From: Gemmatimonadota bacterium | GTDB taxonomy: Bacteria; JAAXHH01 | Reading direction: 5' to 3' | Length of the DNA stretch: 64,000 nt | Assembly (NCBI GenBank): GCA_009837395.1 | Contig: VXTP01000043.1 | Span: 124,001-188,000, forward strand | Shown: positions 1,872 through 42,651 of the stretch, one piece after another | Numbering within the stretch: the first letter of the stretch is position 1 | Layout of the letters: the number at the start of each line of letters is the position of its first letter | The notes under the pieces: generated by a model | What the model saw: the letters and a program-made list of their open reading frames with translations, nothing else | The model's database searches: none | Told to the model about the DNA's origin: nothing | Made by a program: the position numbers and the translations under genes

Positions 1872-3146
1872 TTGCACACCGTGATCGTTGGAAACGGCGT
1901 AACCGGCGTTACGGCCGCCACGCGGCTCAGGCAGCTTCAGCCGGACTGGAAGATCTCGCTGGTATCGGGTGAATCGGCCTTCCACTACTCCCGCCCCGCC
2001 CTCATGTACATCTTCATGGGGCACATGACCTACGAGGCGACGAAACCCTTCGAGGACCGTTTCTGGCGCGACCAGCGCCTGGACCTGGTCAGGGACTGGG
2101 TCACCGGCATCGATATCGAGGACAAGCAGCTGGTGTTGCACCGGAACGGGCGGCTGCCCTATGACCGGCTGCTGATCGCCACCGGCGCCAAGTCGAACAA
2201 GTTCGGCTGGCCGGGGCAGGACCTCGAGGGCGTTCAGGGCCTGTACAACCTGAAAGACCTGCGCCAACTGTACAAGAACGCGGAGCGGACCCGTCACGCG
2301 GTCATCGTCGGCGGCGGGCTGATCGGCATCGAACTGGCCGAGATGCTCCATTCGAGGCACATCCACGTCACCTTTCTCATCCGCGAGCCGTCCTACTGGT
2401 GCAATGTCCTGCCCATGGAGGAGTCGGGCATGATCAACCGGTTGATCGAGGAGCAGGGCATCGGCCTGATCCGGGAGACCAACCTGAAGGAGATCGTGGA
2501 CGACGGCTCGGGCAGGGTCGAAGCGGTCGTCACCGAGTTCGACGACCGGATCGAATGCCAGTTCGTCGGCCTGACGCCCGGCGTTTCGCCCAATACGGAC
2601 CTGGTCAAGTCGACCCCCATCGAAACCGGCCGGGGCGTCCTGGTCGACCATTCCTTCCGCACGAACATCCCCGACATCTACGCCGCGGGAGACTGCGCGG
2701 AAATCGTCAGCCGGAACGGGGGCCGCAACCTGATCCAACAGGTCTGGTATACGGGCAAGAAACAGGGCAAGGCCGCCGGTGAAGTGCTGGCCGGGGAGGA
2801 TACGGCATACGATCCGGGGATCTGGTTCAATTCGGCCAAGTTCTTCGACCTGGAATACCAGACCTACGGCATGATCCTGAGTACCCCCCAGCCCGGCGAG
2901 CAGCACCTGTACTGGGAACATCCCTCCCACCGCCACGCCGTCCGCGTCGTCGGCGCAGACGGGTGTATCAAGGCCTTCAATTTCATGGGAATACGCGCCC
3001 GCCACGAGGTGTGCGAACGCTGGATCGCCGAACGGCGCACCGTGGAGTACGTCCTGGACCACCTGGAAGAAGCCAACTTCGATCCGGAATTTTTCGTCCG
3101 CCACGAGACGGAAATCGTTCGCTCGTTAAAGGAGCAACTCGCATGA
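1872..3146 (+). CDS. FAD/NAD(P)-dependent pyridine nucleotide-disulfide-type oxidoreductase
   Basis: The 424-residue flavoprotein has an FAD dinucleotide-binding motif at residues 7-12 (GNGVTG), the ATG motif near 104, a second Rossmann motif for NAD(P) at 147-152 (GGGLIG), and the second FAD signature YAAGDCAE near 270-277. This resembles nitrite-reductase/rubredoxin-reductase-type flavoproteins that pass NAD(P)H electrons to a protein partner. The chosen start is a TTG at 1872 with GGAGG seven bases upstream; earlier in-frame codons overlap the oxygenase gene. Its stop overlaps the start of the membrane polyferredoxin gene (ATGA), so the two are translationally coupled. The natural partner is therefore likely the polyferredoxin or the oxygenase. 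Confidence 0.87.
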   Translation: MHTVIVGNGVTGVTAATRLRQLQPDWKISLVSGESAFHYSRPALMYIFMGHMTYEATKPFEDRFWRDQRLDLVRDWVTGIDIEDKQLVLHRNGRLPYDRLLIATGAKSNKFGWPGQDLEGVQGLYNLKDLRQLYKNAERTRHAVIVGGGLIGIELAEMLHSRHIHVTFLIREPSYWCNVLPMEESGMINRLIEEQGIGLIRETNLKEIVDDGSGRVEAVVTEFDDRIECQFVGLTPGVSPNTDLVKSTPIETGRGVLVDHSFRTNIPDIYAAGDCAEIVSRNGGRNLIQQVWYTGKKQGKAAGEVLAGEDTAYDPGIWFNSAKFFDLEYQTYGMILSTPQPGEQHLYWEHPSHRHAVRVVGADGCIKAFNFMGIRARHEVCERWIAERRTVEYVLDHLEEANFDPEFFVRHETEIVRSLKEQLA

Positions 3147-4600
3147 GCACACCGCCCGCTGGAACGACGTTGATCGACCCGGAGACCATCGCGTACTTTT
3201 ACGACGAAGAGGCCGACGGATTCGGTGAACCAGCCTCCGCGGCCGAAGCGCCCAGGAACCCGGGCCTGATGGTCTCCGCCGGCGTGATCGGACTGGGTTT
3301 CCTCGCCCTCGCCGTCTCCCTGCTCGGCAGTATGCCCCTCGCCGGCGCCTGGACGCCCTTCCTGCTCTCCTTCGGCCTGTTGACGGCCGGTACGATCGGT
3401 TACGCCTGGTTCGCCTACAAGGACACCGTGCCCGGCATCAAGCACGACGGCATCATGTTCGGAAACACCACGCACCGCGGCGCGATCGCCTGGGCGCTGG
3501 GCATCGCGCTCACCGGATTCTACGTCGTGCTGTACTGGTGGCCCGAATACCTGGCGCGCGCCATCGCGCTCGTCGAGCCGTTGTCACAGGCCCTGGCGGG
3601 ACAGCCGGCGAACCAGTGGTTTCTCTACGGGTTTCTCTACACCATGGCCGTGGTGCTCTTCGGTTTCCGCATGTTCATGCGGTACCGCCACAACCGCTAC
3701 CACATCATCCGGACCATTTCGGTCATGTTCTTTCAACTGGTGCTGGCCTTTATCCTGCCCCATTTACTCCGCGCCCTGAACGAACCGGAGTTCTATTTCA
3801 GCTATTTCTGGCCGCTGAAGTACGACTACCTGTTCCCCGGCACGGTGGATTACCTCGTAAACAGTCCGGGCGCCCTGGGCTCTTTCATGGTGTTCTGGGG
3901 CGCGGTCTGCTCCTTCATCGCCACGCCCGTGCTGACCTATTACTACGGCAAGCGGTGGTACTGTTCATGGGTATGCGGATGCGGCGGACTCGCCGAGACC
4001 CTCGGCGATCCCTGGCGGCACCTGACGCCCAAGTCGACCGTGTCGTGGAAGATCGAACGGGCGATCATCTACGCCGTGCTTCTGCTGATCATCCTGACGA
4101 CGGCCGTGCTCTGGGTGAGCAGCACGTCCGAAGGCGCGCTGAGCAGCATTTCCGCCCCGCTGCAGCAATGGTATGGATTTTACATCGGCGCCGTCTTCGC
4201 GGGCGTCATCGGCGTGGGGTTCTATCCGGTCCTTGGAAACCGGGTCTGGTGCCGTTTCGGCTGCCCGATGGCCGCGGTGCTCGGTATCATCCAGCGGTTC
4301 TTCTCCCGCTTCCGTATCACGACCAACGGCGGCCAGTGCATGTCCTGCGGCAACTGCACCACCTATTGCGAAATGGGCATCGACGTGCGGGCCTACGCCG
4401 AACGCGGAGAGAACATCGTCCGGTCTTCCTGCGTGGGATGCGGGGTCTGTTCGGCCGTGTGTCCCCGCGGCGTGCTCAAGCTCGAGAACGGCCCGTCCCA
4501 CGGTGACCGGTACCCCGGGTCCGACAAACCGCTGGGGGCTCTTTCGACGGCCGTCAGCAAGGGCGCACGGGTGTACGGCGACCGCGACGGGTATGTCTGA
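3143..4600 (+). CDS. Membrane-bound 4Fe-4S polyferredoxin (NapH/CcoG/NosR-like)
   Basis: The 485-residue protein has about eight predicted membrane helices in the first 385 residues. Cysteine motifs lie in the loops: YCSWVCGCGG near 273 and WCRFGCPM near 370, the paired CxxxC(P) signature of the NapH/NosR/CcoG family. A C-terminal ferredoxin-like domain follows, with CxxCxxC motifs near 399 (CMSCGNC) and 430 (CVGCGVC), each followed by a distal Cys. It probably carries electrons between the quinone pool or the flavoprotein and an acceptor at the membrane. The ATG overlaps the flavoprotein stop. The family fits well, but the physiological acceptor is not visible. Confidence 0.85.
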   Translation: MSTPPAGTTLIDPETIAYFYDEEADGFGEPASAAEAPRNPGLMVSAGVIGLGFLALAVSLLGSMPLAGAWTPFLLSFGLLTAGTIGYAWFAYKDTVPGIKHDGIMFGNTTHRGAIAWALGIALTGFYVVLYWWPEYLARAIALVEPLSQALAGQPANQWFLYGFLYTMAVVLFGFRMFMRYRHNRYHIIRTISVMFFQLVLAFILPHLLRALNEPEFYFSYFWPLKYDYLFPGTVDYLVNSPGALGSFMVFWGAVCSFIATPVLTYYYGKRWYCSWVCGCGGLAETLGDPWRHLTPKSTVSWKIERAIIYAVLLLIILTTAVLWVSSTSEGALSSISAPLQQWYGFYIGAVFAGVIGVGFYPVLGNRVWCRFGCPMAAVLGIIQRFFSRFRITTNGGQCMSCGNCTTYCEMGIDVRAYAERGENIVRSSCVGCGVCSAVCPRGVLKLENGPSHGDRYPGSDKPLGALSTAVSKGARVYGDRDGYV

Positions 4601-4628
4601 GCCGGAGCACCCGACGACCGTCCAGACC

Positions 4629-5534
4629 TCACCTCACCAGGAAGATCACCACCGCGACCGTGACGATGCTGCAGACGGTTGAGAGGAACACGGCGTTGGC
4701 CGCGAAGTCCTCCCTGCTGCCGAATTCCAGGGCGATCAGCACGGTGTTGATCGCGGTGGGATAACTGGTGGACACGATCAGGATCGGTGCGATCCGGGGA
4801 TCGATGTCCAGCAGGAGCACGAGTCCGTAGCCGATCAGGGGGGAAATCACCAGGCGGCATACCAGGGAGGCCAGGCTGGCCTGCCACGCCTGCGTGATGC
4901 GGGTCCTGGCCAGCTGCATGCCCAGGGTGACCAGGGCCATGGGAACGAGTGCCTCGGCCAGGTACTCGATGGGAAGCCAGACGAAGCCGGGGAGTTGCAG
5001 GCCGAAGTTCCGGATGGCGAAGGCCAGGATCAGCGCGTATACGAAGGGCATCTTGAAGGACTGCAGGAACGCCCTCCGGGCTGAAATGCGGCCGACCGAG
5101 ACGAAGAACAGCCCCAGGGTGAACACGAGAAAGTTCTGGACGGCCAGGACGATGGACTGAACGGCCAGGCCCAGGGTGGGAAAGGCCAGTTCGCTGGCCG
5201 GAAAGCCGTAGTTGCCGCTGTTGTAGTACATGACCGAAAGGCTGAAGGCCTGCTTCATGTCCTTCCGGTACCGCATGACCAGGGAACCGGCCAGGCTCAG
5301 TACATAGAGCGCGACCAGCATGAGCAGGCAGAACACACTGGTGTCCCAGACGAAATCGGCGGAGAGTTCGGACTGGGTCAGGGATACGACGAGGGTCGCG
5401 GGCATGACCAGGTACAGCAGGACCCGCGTCAGGGCCTGCATATCGAAATGCCATTTCTTCTGAAACAGGTAGCCGAGGGAGATGAGGACGAAAATCGGGG
5501 CGATGATGTCGAGCAGGATGTTCAGGAATGGCAT
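4629..5534 (-). CDS. AEC-family (auxin efflux carrier-like) transporter
   Basis: This is a 301-residue, very hydrophobic protein with about ten predicted helices in two halves. The opening (FLNILLDIIAPIFVLISLGY) and the LVMPATLV segment near 42-49 are typical of bacterial AEC permeases, which export or import organic acids or similar anions. It is convergent with the polyferredoxin gene, with 28 bp between stops. It is preceded on the same strand by an SDR gene that ends 54 bp upstream, so the pair may be co-transcribed. The substrate is unknown. Confidence 0.85.
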   Translation of the reverse strand: MPFLNILLDIIAPIFVLISLGYLFQKKWHFDMQALTRVLLYLVMPATLVVSLTQSELSADFVWDTSVFCLLMLVALYVLSLAGSLVMRYRKDMKQAFSLSVMYYNSGNYGFPASELAFPTLGLAVQSIVLAVQNFLVFTLGLFFVSVGRISARRAFLQSFKMPFVYALILAFAIRNFGLQLPGFVWLPIEYLAEALVPMALVTLGMQLARTRITQAWQASLASLVCRLVISPLIGYGLVLLLDIDPRIAPILIVSTSYPTAINTVLIALEFGSREDFAANAVFLSTVCSIVTVAVVIFLVR

Positions 5535-36222: not shown

Positions 36223-36270
36223 ACCCGATCTGCTGGTGTTTTTTTCCGCATTGCCAAGGGGGTATGTAGC

Positions 36271-36633
36271 GTGCTTAAAGTTCAGGGATTCGGCGGTTTC
36301 TTTTTTAGGGCAGAGGATCCGGAAGGACTTTCTAAATGGTATCAGGATCATCTTGGCATCAATCCTGCTCCAACGAACATGGAGATGGCGCCCTGGGTGA
36401 CCGAGTCCGGGGTGACGGTTTTCTCTCCGTTCGAAGCGAATACGGATTACTTCGCAGCGGACAAGTCTTTCATGTTGAACTTCCGCGTGGCCGATCTGGA
36501 CGCGATGATCGTACAACTGAAGTCTGCGGATATCGAGGTAAGCCACGAAAGCGAGATGGAGGGCATCGGTCGCTTCGCCCGTATCCACGACCCCGAAGGA
36601 AACGCGATCGAGCTTTGGGAACCCGCTTCGTGA
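36271..36633 (+). CDS. VOC (glyoxalase/bleomycin-resistance) family protein
   Basis: This is a 120-residue single VOC module. FFFRAEDPEGLSKWYQDHLGI at the start gives the first beta-alpha unit, and HDPEGNAIELWEP at the end gives the metal-binding Glu. The usual first His ligand is not evident, so metal-dependent activity is uncertain. The start is a GTG preceded by AAGGGGG. It may be a lyase, isomerase or binding protein. Confidence 0.85.
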   Translation: MLKVQGFGGFFFRAEDPEGLSKWYQDHLGINPAPTNMEMAPWVTESGVTVFSPFEANTDYFAADKSFMLNFRVADLDAMIVQLKSADIEVSHESEMEGIGRFARIHDPEGNAIELWEPAS

Positions 36634-36686
36634 GATTCGGACTTATTCCAGTTTCAAGTGAGTTAAAGGGCAGGGAGAACGAATAA

Positions 36687-36974
36687 ATGGCTACAGAGGT
36701 CTGGCATGTAGGAAGCGACTTCGATGAGTTTCTGAAAGAAGAAGGTCTGCTTGAGGAGGTAGAACGAGTCGCGATCAAACGAGTGGTCGCTTATCAGGTG
36801 GGGCAATACATGTTGAATCAAGGACTGACCAAGACGGAAATGGCCCGGCGAATGCACACGAGTCGCGCCTCTCTGGATCGCCTTCTGGATCCGGATAACA
36901 GTTCGGTCACGTTGCAGACCCTCGATCGGGCGGCCCGTGCGCTGGGGAGACGCCTGCACATCGCGCTGGTTTGA
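36687..36974 (+). CDS. XRE-family HTH regulator
   Basis: The 95-residue protein has a helical N-terminal segment (FLKEEGLLEEVERVAIKRV), then a helix-turn-helix near 47-70 (LTKTEMARRMHTSRASLDRLL) and a C-terminal TLQTLDRAARALGRRL helix. This matches HTH proteins often found as antitoxins next to RelE/HigB-like toxins. I see no toxin gene beside it. It lies 52 bp upstream of vsr, so it might control the restriction-like island. Confidence 0.88.
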   Translation: MATEVWHVGSDFDEFLKEEGLLEEVERVAIKRVVAYQVGQYMLNQGLTKTEMARRMHTSRASLDRLLDPDNSSVTLQTLDRAARALGRRLHIALV

Positions 36975-37025
36975 CCCGCTTCCGGTCGGTTGTTACTCAA
37001 ATTCGAAACAAGATTAGCACCGAAA

Positions 37026-37430
37026 ATGAGTGATAGGATATCACAGGCAGATCGCAGTCGGGTTATGCGGCGTATAGGGGCAAAAAACACTGTACCCGAG
37101 ATGCGTGTAAGGCGCCTAATACATAAAATGGGCTATCGGTACCGCCTTCATCGCCGAGATCTTCCTGGCTCTCCGGATATAGTATTTGTTAAACAACGCA
37201 GAGTTATTTTCGTGCATGGTTGCTTCTGGCATCAGCATGATTGCCCACGAGGAACGCGTCCTGTATCCAATACCAGGTTTTGGAACTCAAAACTTCAAAA
37301 GAATGTAGAAAGAGACCGTCAAAATATCGCTGCCCTTACTTCTGCCGGTTGGTGTGTTTTGGTAGTTTGGGAATGCCAGACGAAATCTACTGTTTTCCTC
37401 GCAAATCTAGTAAAAAGATTTCTGGACTAG
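37026..37430 (+). CDS. vsr: Very short patch repair endonuclease
   Basis: The 134-residue protein matches Vsr throughout. The motif GSPDIVF places the catalytic Asp at D51, VHGCFWHQH gives H64 and H69, and KNVERDRQNI gives D97, all at the numbering of the E. coli enzyme. The Trp/Phe-rich GCFWH segment intercalates at T:G mismatches. It nicks DNA at T:G mismatches created by deamination of 5-methylcytosine, so its presence fits the cytosine methyltransferase 3 kb away. I choose the internal ATG at 37026; an upstream alternative adds 12 residues. It is convergent with the helicase gene, the stops only 8 bp apart. Confidence 0.95.
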   Translation: MSDRISQADRSRVMRRIGAKNTVPEMRVRRLIHKMGYRYRLHRRDLPGSPDIVFVKQRRVIFVHGCFWHQHDCPRGTRPVSNTRFWNSKLQKNVERDRQNIAALTSAGWCVLVVWECQTKSTVFLANLVKRFLD

Positions 37431-37438
37431 TACGCACT

Positions 37439-40400
37439 TTAATGGTTTGTGCGAGCACTCTCAGCTTCCCTTCGTGGGCAGAAACCTCCAAAATCACATC
37501 GACTGCATCGGTTTTCTACTCGGTCGGTAGGTCCACTTTGGAATTCCCTTTTTCGTATCTGTTGACCTGCTTGAGCGATTTCGATCCGAACTCGCTCTAG
37601 TTCTTCCTCACCAAGTCCAACCTCAACCTGACGACGATCCGAATCACGTTCGCCAATATACCTTACCAGGCCGTGATATGGTTCGTATTCTAGTTCATCT
37701 TTTGCCGCTAAACCATATACCCCAATCTGAAGAGCCATCATTTCTCGAGTTAGACCGGTTCCGGTCTCCTCCTCAGCATTTCCTGATTTGAAATCCACAA
37801 TCGAAACCCTCGGTGGATCATCTAGCCGAACAACATCAATTGCTCCACTAATTAAAAGATTCTCATCGGCGATTAGGGTCTCGAATTCCTTTTCCGGTTC
37901 GAATTCAAGTCGGGCGAGTTCGTGTGCGTAGGTTTTTACATAATCCACTATACCATCAATCGCTCGATTCTGTAGATTTACCAAGGGTTCACCTACAGTA
38001 TACCTCAGATAAAACAACCCCCTGTTTACAAGCGATCGAATCCTTGCTTCCAAATGATCAGTGTTCTCGGCTAATCTCGCCCAGTATTTAGGATTTAGGT
38101 GGATGACCCGAAGGATGTTATGTAGTCCTCGACCGTATCCGAATTCTTGGCCGATTGTTGGGGCAAAACCCAGAACCTTTCGAAGATAAAAATCGTGTGG
38201 ACACTCTAGAAAATACCTTAAATCGGAGAAGTTTGTCGCAATTCGGTTCTCTCGACTGGGAGATGATCTGTGGTACTCTATGGTACCGGAAACATCAAAA
38301 GGTCCATCGGCAACCACACCTCCTACTTCATCAACGAGATTCTTCAGATTCCGGAAAAACAACGATCGACTGTCACCGCTGGCAGATATAAACAGGTACC
38401 GTTCAGCCCTTGTCAGTGCTACATACATCAATCGCCGTTCGTCATCGTAGTTTTCGTTGTCCGCTAGTGTTTCTGGGTTAACATAGTCAGGGGCATCCTC
38501 ATCAAAAGGTACCATTGGAACGGTCCGTGCCCTGTTGTTCGGGAATCGGCGTGCACATACATCTGCGAGAAAGACAGTACCAAACTCCAGTCCCTTTGCA
38601 GAATGTATGGTAGTGATGCTCACTGCGTCATGGCTGACCAGCATAGGGGACTCTGATGACCTCGCAGCACTAGATCCCCAATGAAACAGTGCAATTAGCT
38701 GCCATTGCAGTTTATCGGCAGGCGTCCAACCTGAAGTCTCGACGGCTTTAATCAAAGAGCTCAATTGACCAATGTGGAACATAGTATTCTGAACTTCGGT
38801 GAAGTTTTGGTCTGACGACCATTGCGAAAATCCTGCCTCTGTTAGTATCCAGTGGAATATGGTCTGTGGAAAAACTCGGCGTGGCTGACGACGCCGCATT
38901 AACCATCGCCTACAGTCAACACCAGAGTGCAGGGATGCAATATCCTCAAGTTGTGACTCGTTCGAAGTCAAACGGTGACTGATTGCGCGGCAGAGGACAT
39001 GAAGTCGAGCGGCGGTATCTTCAGGTACACACAATCCTCGTTCTCGCAACTTTTCTACTGCTGAAACTACAACCTCCTCTGGCCTCGGTCCCACACCCAA
39101 AACGTCGTGAATACGTCCGGGAAGACTACGTGGATTCTCCATCGTACCTAAGAAAACCCTTATTCCAGCACAAATCGCCAGTGCACCCAGAAACAACAGA
39201 ACCTCAGGTTGAGAGAACAGATCTGGTCCTCCACGGACGACGGCCGGTATCCCTTTAGCTCGTAAGGTATCCTGATAGGTTCGGATATCGGTTCCTGACC
39301 GCACTAATATCGCAATATCGGATAGCTTGAGGCCCCTTGCCCCACCGTTTTCATCATGAAATGCTCCGGACGAATCTGTGGGTACTAGGTTGTGTATCGT
39401 ATTAGCAATCCATTCTGCTTCGGCATTGCGATCATTGAAGTGTAGATGTGCTACGTGAGAACCAAATTTATCCATCCTCGTTTCTCTTCGATGTAGCATC
39501 GAAGGGTTGGTCATGCCCGAGGTATCGAGAATCGTTTCGGACCACTTATTTGACAGGTTTATCAATCGAGGTGTCGAACGGTAGTTGGCGGGTAATTGCT
39601 GAATGTGACCATCTTCTGAAGCCTCAAGCTCACTGAATAAACGTCCCATCAAGTCAACTCGGCTTCCCCTGAAGGAATAAATCGCCTGTCGATGGTCTCC
39701 GACTGCAGTCAGGAATCCATCAGTCCCAATGATCCTTGAAATCAGGGTATATTGGACGGGATTTATATCTTGGACTTCGTCAACAACCAGGCGTTTGCAA
39801 CGTAACCTAACTTCTTGTTCAAATCCTTGATCGTGTCCAAGACGCCGTGAGAATTCCGATTGAATTGTACTGAAATCAAGAAACCTACGGGAACGAAGAT
39901 ACGCATAGTAACGAGCCGCTGATTTAGCGAATGCCGAAGCCAATTCTGATTCGCCAACATTCGTTTCGAGTTCAGCTTGACGACACCATTCCCTCTCATC
40001 AGAGACATTGGCCGGAGGCTGTAAAGTCGGTAAGGCAACACGGAATAGATCGTACTCATTTAAGAGGTCATATCCCCTTAAAAAAAGCTCCAAACTACGA
40101 AATTTGCCTCTTGCAACACCAGCACTTTCAACGGCAGATTTAAAACCACGCAGTCCTAGGATTCCATTATAGCCCTGTTCTATAAGCGCCATTCTCCCTG
40201 CATCATCCACGACATCAAACATATAGAACTCATCGGGCGCAAATTCCCGGAGTGACTTCAAACAGAAGCCATGGATAGTACCAATATACATACCTCCGAG
40301 GGAGGTGTTTTCGTCTTCCAATGCAATTCGTTCTAACCACGACCGAATTCGAAACGTCAATTCCTCGGCTGCGGCTTCGGTAAACGTGAAAGCAACTATT

Positions 40401-40585
40401 TCATTCTTCGGGACCCCATCTACTACGATCCACCAGGCAACTCGACGCGCCATGATTTCTGTTTTACCCGAACCAGCACCTGCCACCACAAGTAGGCGAC
40501 GAGAGTTACTACTCACAGCGTTTTGTTGTTCGTGGTTCAGATCCGTAAGTAGCAAATCTCGAGCCTGGGATTCAGACAGAGGCAT
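37439..40585 (-). CDS. UvrD/AddA-like SF1 helicase fused to a RecB/Cas4-type nuclease
   Basis: The 1048-residue protein has the complete SF1A helicase set: Walker A GAGSGKT at 36-42, VVDEVQDINPVQ near 270, GDHRQAIYSFRGS near 298, TTIHSAKGLEFG near 650 and RRLMYVALTRAERYLF near 720. The C-terminal 250 residues form a PD-(D/E)XK nuclease: SGAIDVV near 920 and VDFKSG near 932. Cysteines in LECPHDF near 797 and RCSRCDFGGFCP near 1033 follow the C...CxxCxxxxxC iron-staple pattern of AddB and Cas4. It should unwind and degrade DNA. It starts 4 bp after the methyltransferase stop and is AT-richer than the flanking genome. Confidence 0.88.
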   Translation of the reverse strand: MPLSESQARDLLLTDLNHEQQNAVSSNSRRLLVVAGAGSGKTEIMARRVAWWIVVDGVPKNEIVAFTFTEAAAEELTFRIRSWLERIALEDENTSLGGMYIGTIHGFCLKSLREFAPDEFYMFDVVDDAGRMALIEQGYNGILGLRGFKSAVESAGVARGKFRSLELFLRGYDLLNEYDLFRVALPTLQPPANVSDEREWCRQAELETNVGESELASAFAKSAARYYAYLRSRRFLDFSTIQSEFSRRLGHDQGFEQEVRLRCKRLVVDEVQDINPVQYTLISRIIGTDGFLTAVGDHRQAIYSFRGSRVDLMGRLFSELEASEDGHIQQLPANYRSTPRLINLSNKWSETILDTSGMTNPSMLHRRETRMDKFGSHVAHLHFNDRNAEAEWIANTIHNLVPTDSSGAFHDENGGARGLKLSDIAILVRSGTDIRTYQDTLRAKGIPAVVRGGPDLFSQPEVLLFLGALAICAGIRVFLGTMENPRSLPGRIHDVLGVGPRPEEVVVSAVEKLRERGLCVPEDTAARLHVLCRAISHRLTSNESQLEDIASLHSGVDCRRWLMRRRQPRRVFPQTIFHWILTEAGFSQWSSDQNFTEVQNTMFHIGQLSSLIKAVETSGWTPADKLQWQLIALFHWGSSAARSSESPMLVSHDAVSITTIHSAKGLEFGTVFLADVCARRFPNNRARTVPMVPFDEDAPDYVNPETLADNENYDDERRLMYVALTRAERYLFISASGDSRSLFFRNLKNLVDEVGGVVADGPFDVSGTIEYHRSSPSRENRIATNFSDLRYFLECPHDFYLRKVLGFAPTIGQEFGYGRGLHNILRVIHLNPKYWARLAENTDHLEARIRSLVNRGLFYLRYTVGEPLVNLQNRAIDGIVDYVKTYAHELARLEFEPEKEFETLIADENLLISGAIDVVRLDDPPRVSIVDFKSGNAEEETGTGLTREMMALQIGVYGLAAKDELEYEPYHGLVRYIGERDSDRRQVEVGLGEEELERVRIEIAQAGQQIRKREFQSGPTDRVENRCSRCDFGGFCPRREAESARTNH

Positions 40586-40589
40586 TGAA

Positions 40590-41630
40590 TCAACCGTTTC
40601 CGGTTACATTTGTGGGTGAACAAGGATGAAGGTGCTTGTGGATTTCCCTGGCATGGTACTCAGCAAATCTTGGAGGGAACGCGTTTCCTATCATCTCAGC
40701 CGCTGGATACCTACCTCTAGACATATCAAAGAAATAATGGGTTGGAAATCCTTGTAAAACAGCGGCTTCCCGGAGAGTTATTGCCCGGTTTTCATGAGGA
40801 TGTAGAAACCGTCCTTTTGAAGGATTGATGCATCCGCCAGTAATGGTTGGAGCTGGCTTCTGCCAAGCCATTCGCCCGTATACATCTTTGAAACCATCAA
40901 AACCTTTGTGGCAATTAAGCTGGTCGTCTATCGGAAGTTGGGTGCGACTCCCTCCATCCTTTGGAATTTGGCGAATCAGTGCCAGAACGTGATTCGAACG
41001 TCGAACGTTGTAGGAATGGACAGGGTCATCGGATTTGTTCGGAGACGGGAGATGTCGAAAAGCTTGCGCTACAGTACGCCTACGTTTCTGGGGTGCAGGA
41101 AACGATATGGCACCAAATCGTGAACCTAGTAATACCAATCTGCGCCGTCGCTGTGGGACACCGAAGTGCTCTGCATTTAAGATTTTAGCTTTACAAGAGT
41201 ATCTAGATTCTGAGAGTACTTGCTTTATTTGATGCAATCGATGGTCGTTCATTAAGGCCGGTACGTTCTCAATCATAATGGCCTTGGGTAGAAACGCATG
41301 TACGAACCGAATTAGTTCAAGCACTAGGTCGTTCAACGGCTCTCTTGGGTCGCGCCCGCCGTTCATTGTTCGTAGTGTCGAAAACCCCTGGCATGGCGGA
41401 CAAGCAGCCAGTAAATCCAGTTCCCCGGGTTGTAGCCCCAGTTCCTGCATAAATTCGTTGGCATCAACAGATCTGATATCCTGATTAACAATGTACGTAC
41501 GTCTATGATTCTTCCTGTAAGTCTCTACAGATAACTCGTTGCTGTCGATGGCGGCGATCACCTTAAATCTCGCTCTACGGAGTCCTAGGGTCAGTCCTCC
41601 ACAACCACAAAACAAATCAATTGCAGTCAA
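40590..41630 (-). CDS. C5-cytosine DNA methyltransferase
   Basis: The 346-residue protein has all key motifs of 5mC methyltransferases: DLFCGCGGLTLGL (motif I, residues 5-17), PPCQGFS with catalytic C80 (IV), ENVP at 121-124 (VI), a QRRRR-type motif near 168 (VIII), and the RxxLT-REAAVLQGFP and GNAFPP blocks (IX and X) at the end. The target-recognition region is about 80 residues, so the recognition site is not readable. The only standard start is the TTG at 41630. It lies 4 bp upstream of the helicase-nuclease gene on the same strand, and with vsr it makes an island of shared chemistry. Confidence 0.92.
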   Translation of the reverse strand: MTAIDLFCGCGGLTLGLRRARFKVIAAIDSNELSVETYRKNHRRTYIVNQDIRSVDANEFMQELGLQPGELDLLAACPPCQGFSTLRTMNGGRDPREPLNDLVLELIRFVHAFLPKAIMIENVPALMNDHRLHQIKQVLSESRYSCKAKILNAEHFGVPQRRRRLVLLGSRFGAISFPAPQKRRRTVAQAFRHLPSPNKSDDPVHSYNVRRSNHVLALIRQIPKDGGSRTQLPIDDQLNCHKGFDGFKDVYGRMAWQKPAPTITGGCINPSKGRFLHPHENRAITLREAAVLQGFPTHYFFDMSRGRYPAAEMIGNAFPPRFAEYHAREIHKHLHPCSPTNVTGNG

Positions 41631-41796
41631 TTGAGTACGATCTTCGATTATAGTAACCTCAAGAATGTTGCATCCATAGTCCGCGACTCAGATGCAGAGG
41701 TTTCTGTTTTTTTGATACCGATCACAAGTGGTAGGTGTATGTCCTGGTCCCTTCAGTAGATTCTGTATTTCGCCAGGAGTGTTTGTAATTTGCCAC

Positions 41797-42651
41797 CTAC
41801 ACGTTATCCACCGCGGGTCGCGGAAGATCCGCCCAGTGGCCGGTGGGATCGGATCCCTTGACGATCACGCCTTCCTTGTTCCAGTTGAGTTCGGCACGGA
41901 CGGAGGCGGCGCAGAACCTGAGCGTCAGGCCGCAACGGCGGCGGTCCGACGGATTCAGGCCCGACCCGTGCAGCAGCAGGTCGCTGTGCAGCGAGATCTC
42001 TCCCGCCTTGAGTTCGATGTCCACCTCGGTGCCGTACATCCCGACTTCCTTCACCGTCTGGTTGAGCACGTTGTTCTCGGCTTCTTCGCTCATGTGATAG
42101 GTCAGGTGCCCGTAGTGGTGCGATCCGGCCACGAAACGCATGCAGGCGTTGCCCGTGTCCGCGTCGTCGATGGCCAGCCAGGCGGTGACCGTCTTTGACG
42201 GTGAGAGGGGCCAGAAGCTGGCGTCCTGGTGCCAGTTGACGATCTTGCCGTCCCCCGGAAGCTTGCAGAAGAAGTGGGCGCCCCAGCCCACGACGTCGTC
42301 GCCAAGCAGGTCGCTGATGTAGGCGACGATCCGCGGATCGTTCATGATATCGTGCACCATGCCCGATTTCAGGTGGGCCGATATGATGGAATAGTTGTGG
42401 TCGCCCCGTGCCATGACCTGCTCGATCATGCCGTCGAACTCATCCCGGATGGCGCTTATTTCTTCGTCCGAGTATATCCTGAAGGGCTTCAGGTAACCCT
42501 GTTCGTTGAAGGCATCGATCTGTGCGCTCGTAAGCACGGCCGGATGGTCGTTTCGGACCGGGTGGTACCGCAGGTCGCGGGACATGCGGATCAAGTCTTC
42601 CGGGGTCGGCATCTGCTTGAATCGGGTGTCCTGCAGGGTCGTCTGCGCCAT
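41797..42651 (-). CDS. Phytanoyl-CoA dioxygenase family protein
   Basis: The 284-residue PhyH-type Fe(II)/2OG oxygenase has H141-Q-D143 in NWHQDASFWP, distal H228 in LLLHGSGLNPSDRRR, and Arg residues at 237-239 to hold 2-oxoglutarate. This is full-length for the family. Related enzymes hydroxylate lipid or natural-product substrates; this one's substrate is unknown. It is preceded on the same strand by an unrecognised protein gene (41 bp gap), so both may act on the same compound. Confidence 0.92.
   Translation of the reverse strand: MAQTTLQDTRFKQMPTPEDLIRMSRDLRYHPVRNDHPAVLTSAQIDAFNEQGYLKPFRIYSDEEISAIRDEFDGMIEQVMARGDHNYSIISAHLKSGMVHDIMNDPRIVAYISDLLGDDVVGWGAHFFCKLPGDGKIVNWHQDASFWPLSPSKTVTAWLAIDDADTGNACMRFVAGSHHYGHLTYHMSEEAENNVLNQTVKEVGMYGTEVDIELKAGEISLHSDLLLHGSGLNPSDRRRCGLTLRFCAASVRAELNWNKEGVIVKGSDPTGHWADLPRPAVDNV

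Follow-up and report, generated by a model that had tools for sequence, protein, structure and literature searches.

RESULTS

Three genes inserted beside a resident regulator gene

The window, i.e. the whole 64-kb stretch of DNA that was analysed, is GC-rich (~63% GC), and its GC content drops to 46–51% at ~37.0–41.8 kb, where the earlier note had correctly seen an AT-richer island. The features of this region are:

36687..36974, plus strand: XRE/HTH_37-type regulator; host backbone, kept at the congener empty site
36975..41796, no strand: island of ~4.8 kb, defined by congener empty sites and the GC drop
37026..37430, plus strand: Vsr endonuclease, canonical E. coli-like; 134 aa from ATG 37026; TIGR00632
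37439..40585, minus strand: UvrD-like SF1 helicase fused to a Cas4/AddB-type PD-(D/E)XK nuclease; 1048 aa; Pfam
40590..41630, minus strand: C5-cytosine DNA methyltransferase; 346 aa, TTG start; Pfam DNA_methylase, 198 bits

The limits of the island were set by comparison with congeners that have an empty site. The alignment stops at window positions 36974–36977 and resumes at 41796–41797, with 11–15 bp between the alignment ends at the empty site. The island therefore spans ~36975–41796 and contains three genes only: vsr, the gene of a UvrD-like helicase with a fused Cas4-type nuclease, and that of the C5-cytosine methyltransferase. It is bordered by two stop codons, one belonging to the XRE gene and the other to a convergent phytanoyl-CoA-dioxygenase-like gene at 41797. 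Neither an integrase nor a transposase gene was found within 36975–41796, and a search of the island ends for direct or inverted repeats or a target-site duplication of at least 7 bp was negative. At the search cut-off, the helicase-nuclease is absent from the other 15 genomes of the host phylum, a thinly sampled group of which 16 genomes were covered. The three-gene set is horizontally acquired and mobile, and it forms a clean chromosomal insertion.

The XRE gene had been counted as a fourth part of the island, and the empty site leaves it outside: 8 of 11 congeners carry the gene without the island, in DNA that is 81–91% identical. A role as control protein of the module is ruled out by the same site. 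In congener locus L025 (835–1484) the gene lies directly 3′ of a Gp49/DUF891-type toxin gene, which marks it as a predicted resident chromosomal regulator of the antitoxin type, part of the host backbone and no component of the module. No Gp49-type toxin ORF is listed beside it in the 64-kb window, so the copy found here looks like an orphaned antitoxin. Upstream of it, a VOC-family-like gene (36268–36639) has a second copy in another part of the genome that is 86% identical (G000:C23:43764–44135).

Sequence and structural features of the island proteins

The Vsr protein scores 157 bits against TIGR00632, for which the cut-off is 98, and matches E. coli Vsr (1cw0) with an E-value of 4e-31. Its FxHGCFWHxHxC and VWEC motifs align with the key residues of the E. 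coli enzyme, which we take to be D51, H64 and H69 together with the zinc ligands C66, H71, C73 and C117. The open frame begins at TTG 36990; judging by the alignment of homologues, the start is very probably ATG 37026. The gene is convergent to that of the helicase-nuclease, as had been noticed, and the two stop codons are 8 bp apart.

The 1048-residue protein is, as first read, a UvrD-like helicase fused to a RecB/Cas4-type nuclease. Pfam matches are to UvrD-helicase (161 bits), UvrD_C (127 bits) and PDDEXK_1 (PF12705, 79 bits, residues 786–1037); no restriction endonuclease model is among the Pfam and PADLOC matches shown for it. The iron-staple pattern suspected from the letters is real in that all of 12 homologues, the most distant at 23% identity, retain the four cysteines C795, C1027, C1030 and C1036. 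Nuclease residues H822, E898, D917, D931, K933, Q953 and Y957 are invariant in the same 12 homologues, as are the helicase motifs Walker A, DExxQD and motif VI, and the active-site motifs are thus intact. An AlphaFold model made from eight sequences (mean pLDDT 76) has AddA of AddAB as its best PDB fold match, with UvrD, RecB and AdnAB folds also matching. The scores with the AddA and RecB NCBIfam equivalogs are low (137–148 bits against cut-offs of 696–708), and these scores together with the absence of the gene in congeners rule out a housekeeping AddA-like repair gene. The host encodes, in addition, proteins of UvrD size and large UvrD-like ones, so the island protein is not its only copy.

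The methyltransferase gene lies upstream of the helicase-nuclease gene, at a distance of 4 bp. Besides the DNA_methylase match, which upholds the original assignment, the PPCQ motif (C80) and the target-recognition region are conserved with relatives. No close relative was found in the PDB.

The helicase-nuclease is linked to a C5-methyltransferase and Vsr across phyla

Genomes, plasmids and viral contigs were the sources of relatives, and the genes around each of these were examined with profiles for the methyltransferase, for Vsr and for the C-terminal half of the helicase. Queried with the helicase sequence alone, the genome collection gave just two near relatives, and more were reached only with profiles built from the C-terminal half; the phage collection contained no relative with 80% query coverage. 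In a quick tree of 54 helicase-nucleases, with some long branches, the window protein falls in a 12-member clade (SH-aLRT 97). The earlier note had proposed to look at the neighbours of homologues. All 12 members have a C5-methyltransferase within 4 kb, of the same family in 11 and a different one, at 2.3 kb, in L033; Vsr is present in 10 of the 12. It was not detected in near relatives L032 and L035, the latter of which begins at a contig edge. None of the 33 UvrD-nucleases outside a wider 21-member clade has a methyltransferase of the window family or a Vsr nearby. Four loci left out of profile building (L041, L042, L043 and L142) all carry the full trio, and among 369 gammaproteobacterial genomes high-scoring methyltransferases and high-scoring helicases co-occur in the same 3 genomes. 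In L041, from a gammaproteobacterial genome, a type II helicase-domain protein (2993–4939; PADLOC Helicase_II, 328 bits) is encoded directly upstream of the trio.

The clade extends over the host phylum, Gammaproteobacteria, Chloroflexota, the phylum of a Desulfobacula MAG and viral contigs, and the linkage is conserved in these four phyla and in prophages. The layout of the loci varies: the order may be methyltransferase, helicase, Vsr; Vsr may lie between the other two or be convergent; the methyltransferase may be divergent. Such variable order and strand suggest that the linkage is kept by function and is not that of one recent frozen cassette or operon. One locus (L034) belongs to a P2-like prophage with GpU and GPD, L032 adjoins a phage integrase, L031 a type I HsdR, and L142 BrxL and PglZ. 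These settings are typical of defence.

Members of the wider 21-member clade from plasmids and genomes lie beside N6/N4 methyltransferases, type III Res, MspI- and MvaI/BcnI-type enzymes and sacsin/NOV proteins. In L140 (4785–8018) and L144 (4043–7324), large proteins with a sacsin/NO VEIN-type N-terminus (by Pfam for L140) are encoded beside UvrD-Cas4 relatives; in L140 an N6/N4 methyltransferase is also near. Such neighbours apparently represent another defence context of the UvrD-Cas4 family.

Two Vsr subtypes occur in the 12-member clade, the canonical FxHGCFWHxHxC and a non-canonical F[VI]DGDFWHGYGF form (compared in L009, 11170–11613; L142, 592–1137; the window, 37026–37430; L010, 11165–11569; and L034, 10878–11324). 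Each is found in both sub-branches of the helicase, which suggests that Vsr was recruited or swapped repeatedly. The presence of Vsr had been taken to imply that the methyltransferase really makes 5mC that deaminates. For the canonical protein of the window this is reasonable, but Vsr is not obligatory, since some relatives have Vsr-like proteins of a non-canonical type and in two no Vsr was detected.

The same methyltransferase family occurs with other ATP-driven partners

A search of viral contigs with the methyltransferase yielded 79 loci. Partners were counted over 72 loci with a good methyltransferase match from all sources, some contigs being found twice, and an ATPase partner is present in 66. 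It is a helicase-nuclease in 15 loci (4 of them also with an AAA ATPase), a GHKL/MORC-like ATPase in 35 and an AAA_15/21 ATPase in 16; of the other loci, 2 have Vsr only, within the limits used, and 4 no partner. A gammaproteobacterial genome with a weaker methyltransferase match (G353) encodes the methyltransferase, Vsr and a GHKL-like protein. The AAA ATPase accompanies the methyltransferase without the helicase in 16 viral-contig loci, with HEC-04 as best PADLOC match, and four-gene versions in which it adjoins the methyltransferase along with helicase-nuclease and Vsr are seen in L031 (4345–11156) and L034 (4613–11324).

Across GHKL, AAA and helicase partners, the target-recognition region of the methyltransferase, which lies between motifs VIII and IX, is conserved to the same degree as the catalytic domain. 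Partner labels are strongly clustered on the methyltransferase tree, and at least 9 changes are needed. These patterns suggest that the methyltransferase family may read the site and that the ATP-driven partner would be an exchangeable effector. Once identical proteins and contigs found more than once had been taken out, Vsr was present in 9 of 11 helicase loci, against 8 of 31 GHKL loci and none of 14 AAA loci (Fisher p ~1e-4, uncorrected for kinship). We infer that Vsr may matter most with a helicase effector, which could load at a nick.

Relation to known systems

That the combination was undescribed, as the earlier note supposed, is not the case. In 2017, fusions of the UvrD-Cas4 type were reported from Dcm neighbourhoods, in several cases together with Vsr, and predicted to act in defence (Hudaiberdiev et al. 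2017, PMC5704561, Fig. 6); the authors favoured an ancillary role for UvrD-Cas4, named no system and tested nothing. By their published description, those loci and the window share the type of fusion (a UvrD-like SF1 helicase fused to a pfam12705 nuclease), the same two partner genes and the proposed defence role. The adjacent C5-methyltransferase, with Vsr in several loci, is found in the window and 11 relatives. What differs here is a 12-member clade with constant C5-methyltransferase linkage, an empty site and the exchange of ATPase partners. Searches of the open-licence literature turned up neither a name nor an experimental study for the helicase version, and the term UvrD-Cas4 appeared only in PMC5704561. 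GHKL systems with cytosine methyltransferases and Vsr are likewise on record as MORC/paraMORC R-M (Iyer et al. 2008, PMC2292703). They resemble the window locus in combining C5-methyltransferase, Vsr and an ATPase, and the GHKL loci found by us carry a homologous methyltransferase with a conserved recognition region; in the window, however, the putative effector is not a GHKL ATPase but a fusion of SF1 helicase and nuclease. Because related loci were reported in these two papers, we file the locus as an instance of the already predicted UvrD-Cas4/Dcm/Vsr association. The additions are that one methyltransferase family is coupled to a GHKL or AAA ATPase instead of the helicase, and that Vsr is enriched with the helicase partner.

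Likeness to other systems is partial. With AddAB, AdnAB and RecBCD the window protein shares the SF1 helicase, the RecB-like nuclease and the AddB/Cas4-type iron-staple cysteines, but it is a single subunit with no partner subunit gene, is not conserved in its lineage and is tied to a methyltransferase and Vsr. Gabija (GajAB) has a UvrD-like helicase, and GajB helicase models are the best PADLOC matches; however, the OLD-type nuclease gene gajA is absent from the island, the helicase bears its own nuclease and a methyltransferase is present. As in E. coli Dcm–Vsr, a C5-methyltransferase goes with a canonical Vsr, but the window methyltransferase is shorter and only distantly similar, and the helicase-nuclease is added. 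Core genes of DISARM, Druantia and BREX (DrmAB, DruE, PglZ-BrxC) are absent from the three-gene island, in line with the initial view that it is neither DISARM nor BREX. The DruM and DrmMII matches hit the methyltransferase alone, and Gabija, DISARM and Druantia, with single-gene PADLOC 2.0 matches only, were rejected. Compared with a type II R-M system, a site-specific DNA methyltransferase is predicted and a classical cognate restriction endonuclease is lacking among the three genes of the island, where indeed no ordinary restriction endonuclease had been visible at first reading.

DISCUSSION

We consider it probable, at about 0.6, that the three genes form a restriction-modification-like defence module in which the helicase-nuclease destroys unmarked DNA. 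The methyltransferase would mark a target site in host DNA and may also read it. The UvrD-Cas4 protein would be the ATP-driven effector which, loaded at or licensed by unmodified sites (or a nearby nick or end), would unwind and degrade unmodified DNA. Vsr would chiefly repair T:G mismatches arising from 5mC deamination at marked sites, with the supply of a nick for helicase loading as a possible second role. Defence with restriction by the helicase-nuclease is the reading best supported because of the conserved linkage, the prophages, defence islands and BREX neighbours and the lack of a restriction endonuclease in the island; the restriction function proposed for this protein from the outset thus agrees with its context, but methylation, attack on unmodified DNA and the division of labour are predicted from sequence. 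Against it, the helicase-nuclease has no recognised sequence-reading domain, and discrimination between modified and unmodified DNA must be explained; distant relatives are found alongside complete R-M systems equipped with a restriction endonuclease, which fits an accessory role; Hudaiberdiev et al. preferred an ancillary one; and L032 and L035 have no detectable Vsr.

A tentative alternative overlaps with this reading but gives Vsr another role and has the effector recruited directly: the methyltransferase would be a shared site-reading and marking subunit that recruits a GHKL/MORC-like, AAA_15/21 or UvrD-Cas4 effector to unmodified sites, with a Vsr nick as helicase entry. The frequency of ATPase partners, the evenly conserved target-recognition region, the repeated partner changes (clustered though the labels are) and the excess of Vsr with the helicase, kinship uncorrected, all speak for it. 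So does a Caulobacter Vsr-like nuclease that triggers a DNA damage response without cognate 5mC, which its authors read as accidental breakage during repair (PMC12907096). Yet one methyltransferase family often shares its site with unrelated restriction endonucleases, so conserved recognition is no proof that the effector relies on the methyltransferase to read the site; several branches of the tree are weak, and the counts are inflated by related prophages; AAA ATPase and helicase occur together in L031 and L034 and so are not strictly alternatives; and the window Vsr is of the ordinary repair type. We therefore regard as possible, though doubtful, that Vsr has been recruited as the enzyme that nicks unmodified DNA and thereby loads the helicase-nuclease, the methyltransferase being the shared reader, in a form of restriction without a classical restriction endonuclease.

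It is rather unlikely that the locus by itself is inert and that degradation by the helicase-nuclease starts only at DNA ends created by a restriction enzyme that is unlinked or lost. Plasmid relatives that sit with MspI-type and MvaI/BcnI-type endonucleases indicate that members of the family can be accessory, but in the near clade no classical type II restriction endonuclease was noticed among the ORFs scanned beside the methyltransferase–helicase pair, save Vsr-like proteins and parts of other systems. Still less probable is a solitary methylation-and-repair unit in which the helicase-nuclease acts after Vsr on nicked or damaged DNA at 5mC sites. UvrD-family enzymes do unwind from nicks in mismatch repair, and the window Vsr is of the canonical repair type; however, the very short patch pathway of E. 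coli is not known to require a helicase-nuclease. Defence is a better fit to the prophage and defence-island settings and to the ties of distant relatives to R-M loci, and beside the same methyltransferase GHKL and AAA partners replace the helicase. The possible partial redundancy with RecB noted by Hudaiberdiev et al. (PMC5704561) would favour a repair role. Islands often mix cargo, but that unrelated genes came to lie side by side in an AT-rich island by chance is hardly credible given linkage in four phyla, divergence of the helicase to ~26% identity, variable gene order and C5-methyltransferase linkage in all 12 clade members against none of the 33 distant UvrD-nucleases.

If the helicase-nuclease does restrict DNA, the association predicted in 2017 would gain a role, that of restriction without a classical restriction endonuclease. 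If partner exchange reflects shared site reading, MORC-like, AAA and UvrD-Cas4 systems would be joined in one testable scheme, which would also be relevant to the frequent presence of Vsr at defence loci.
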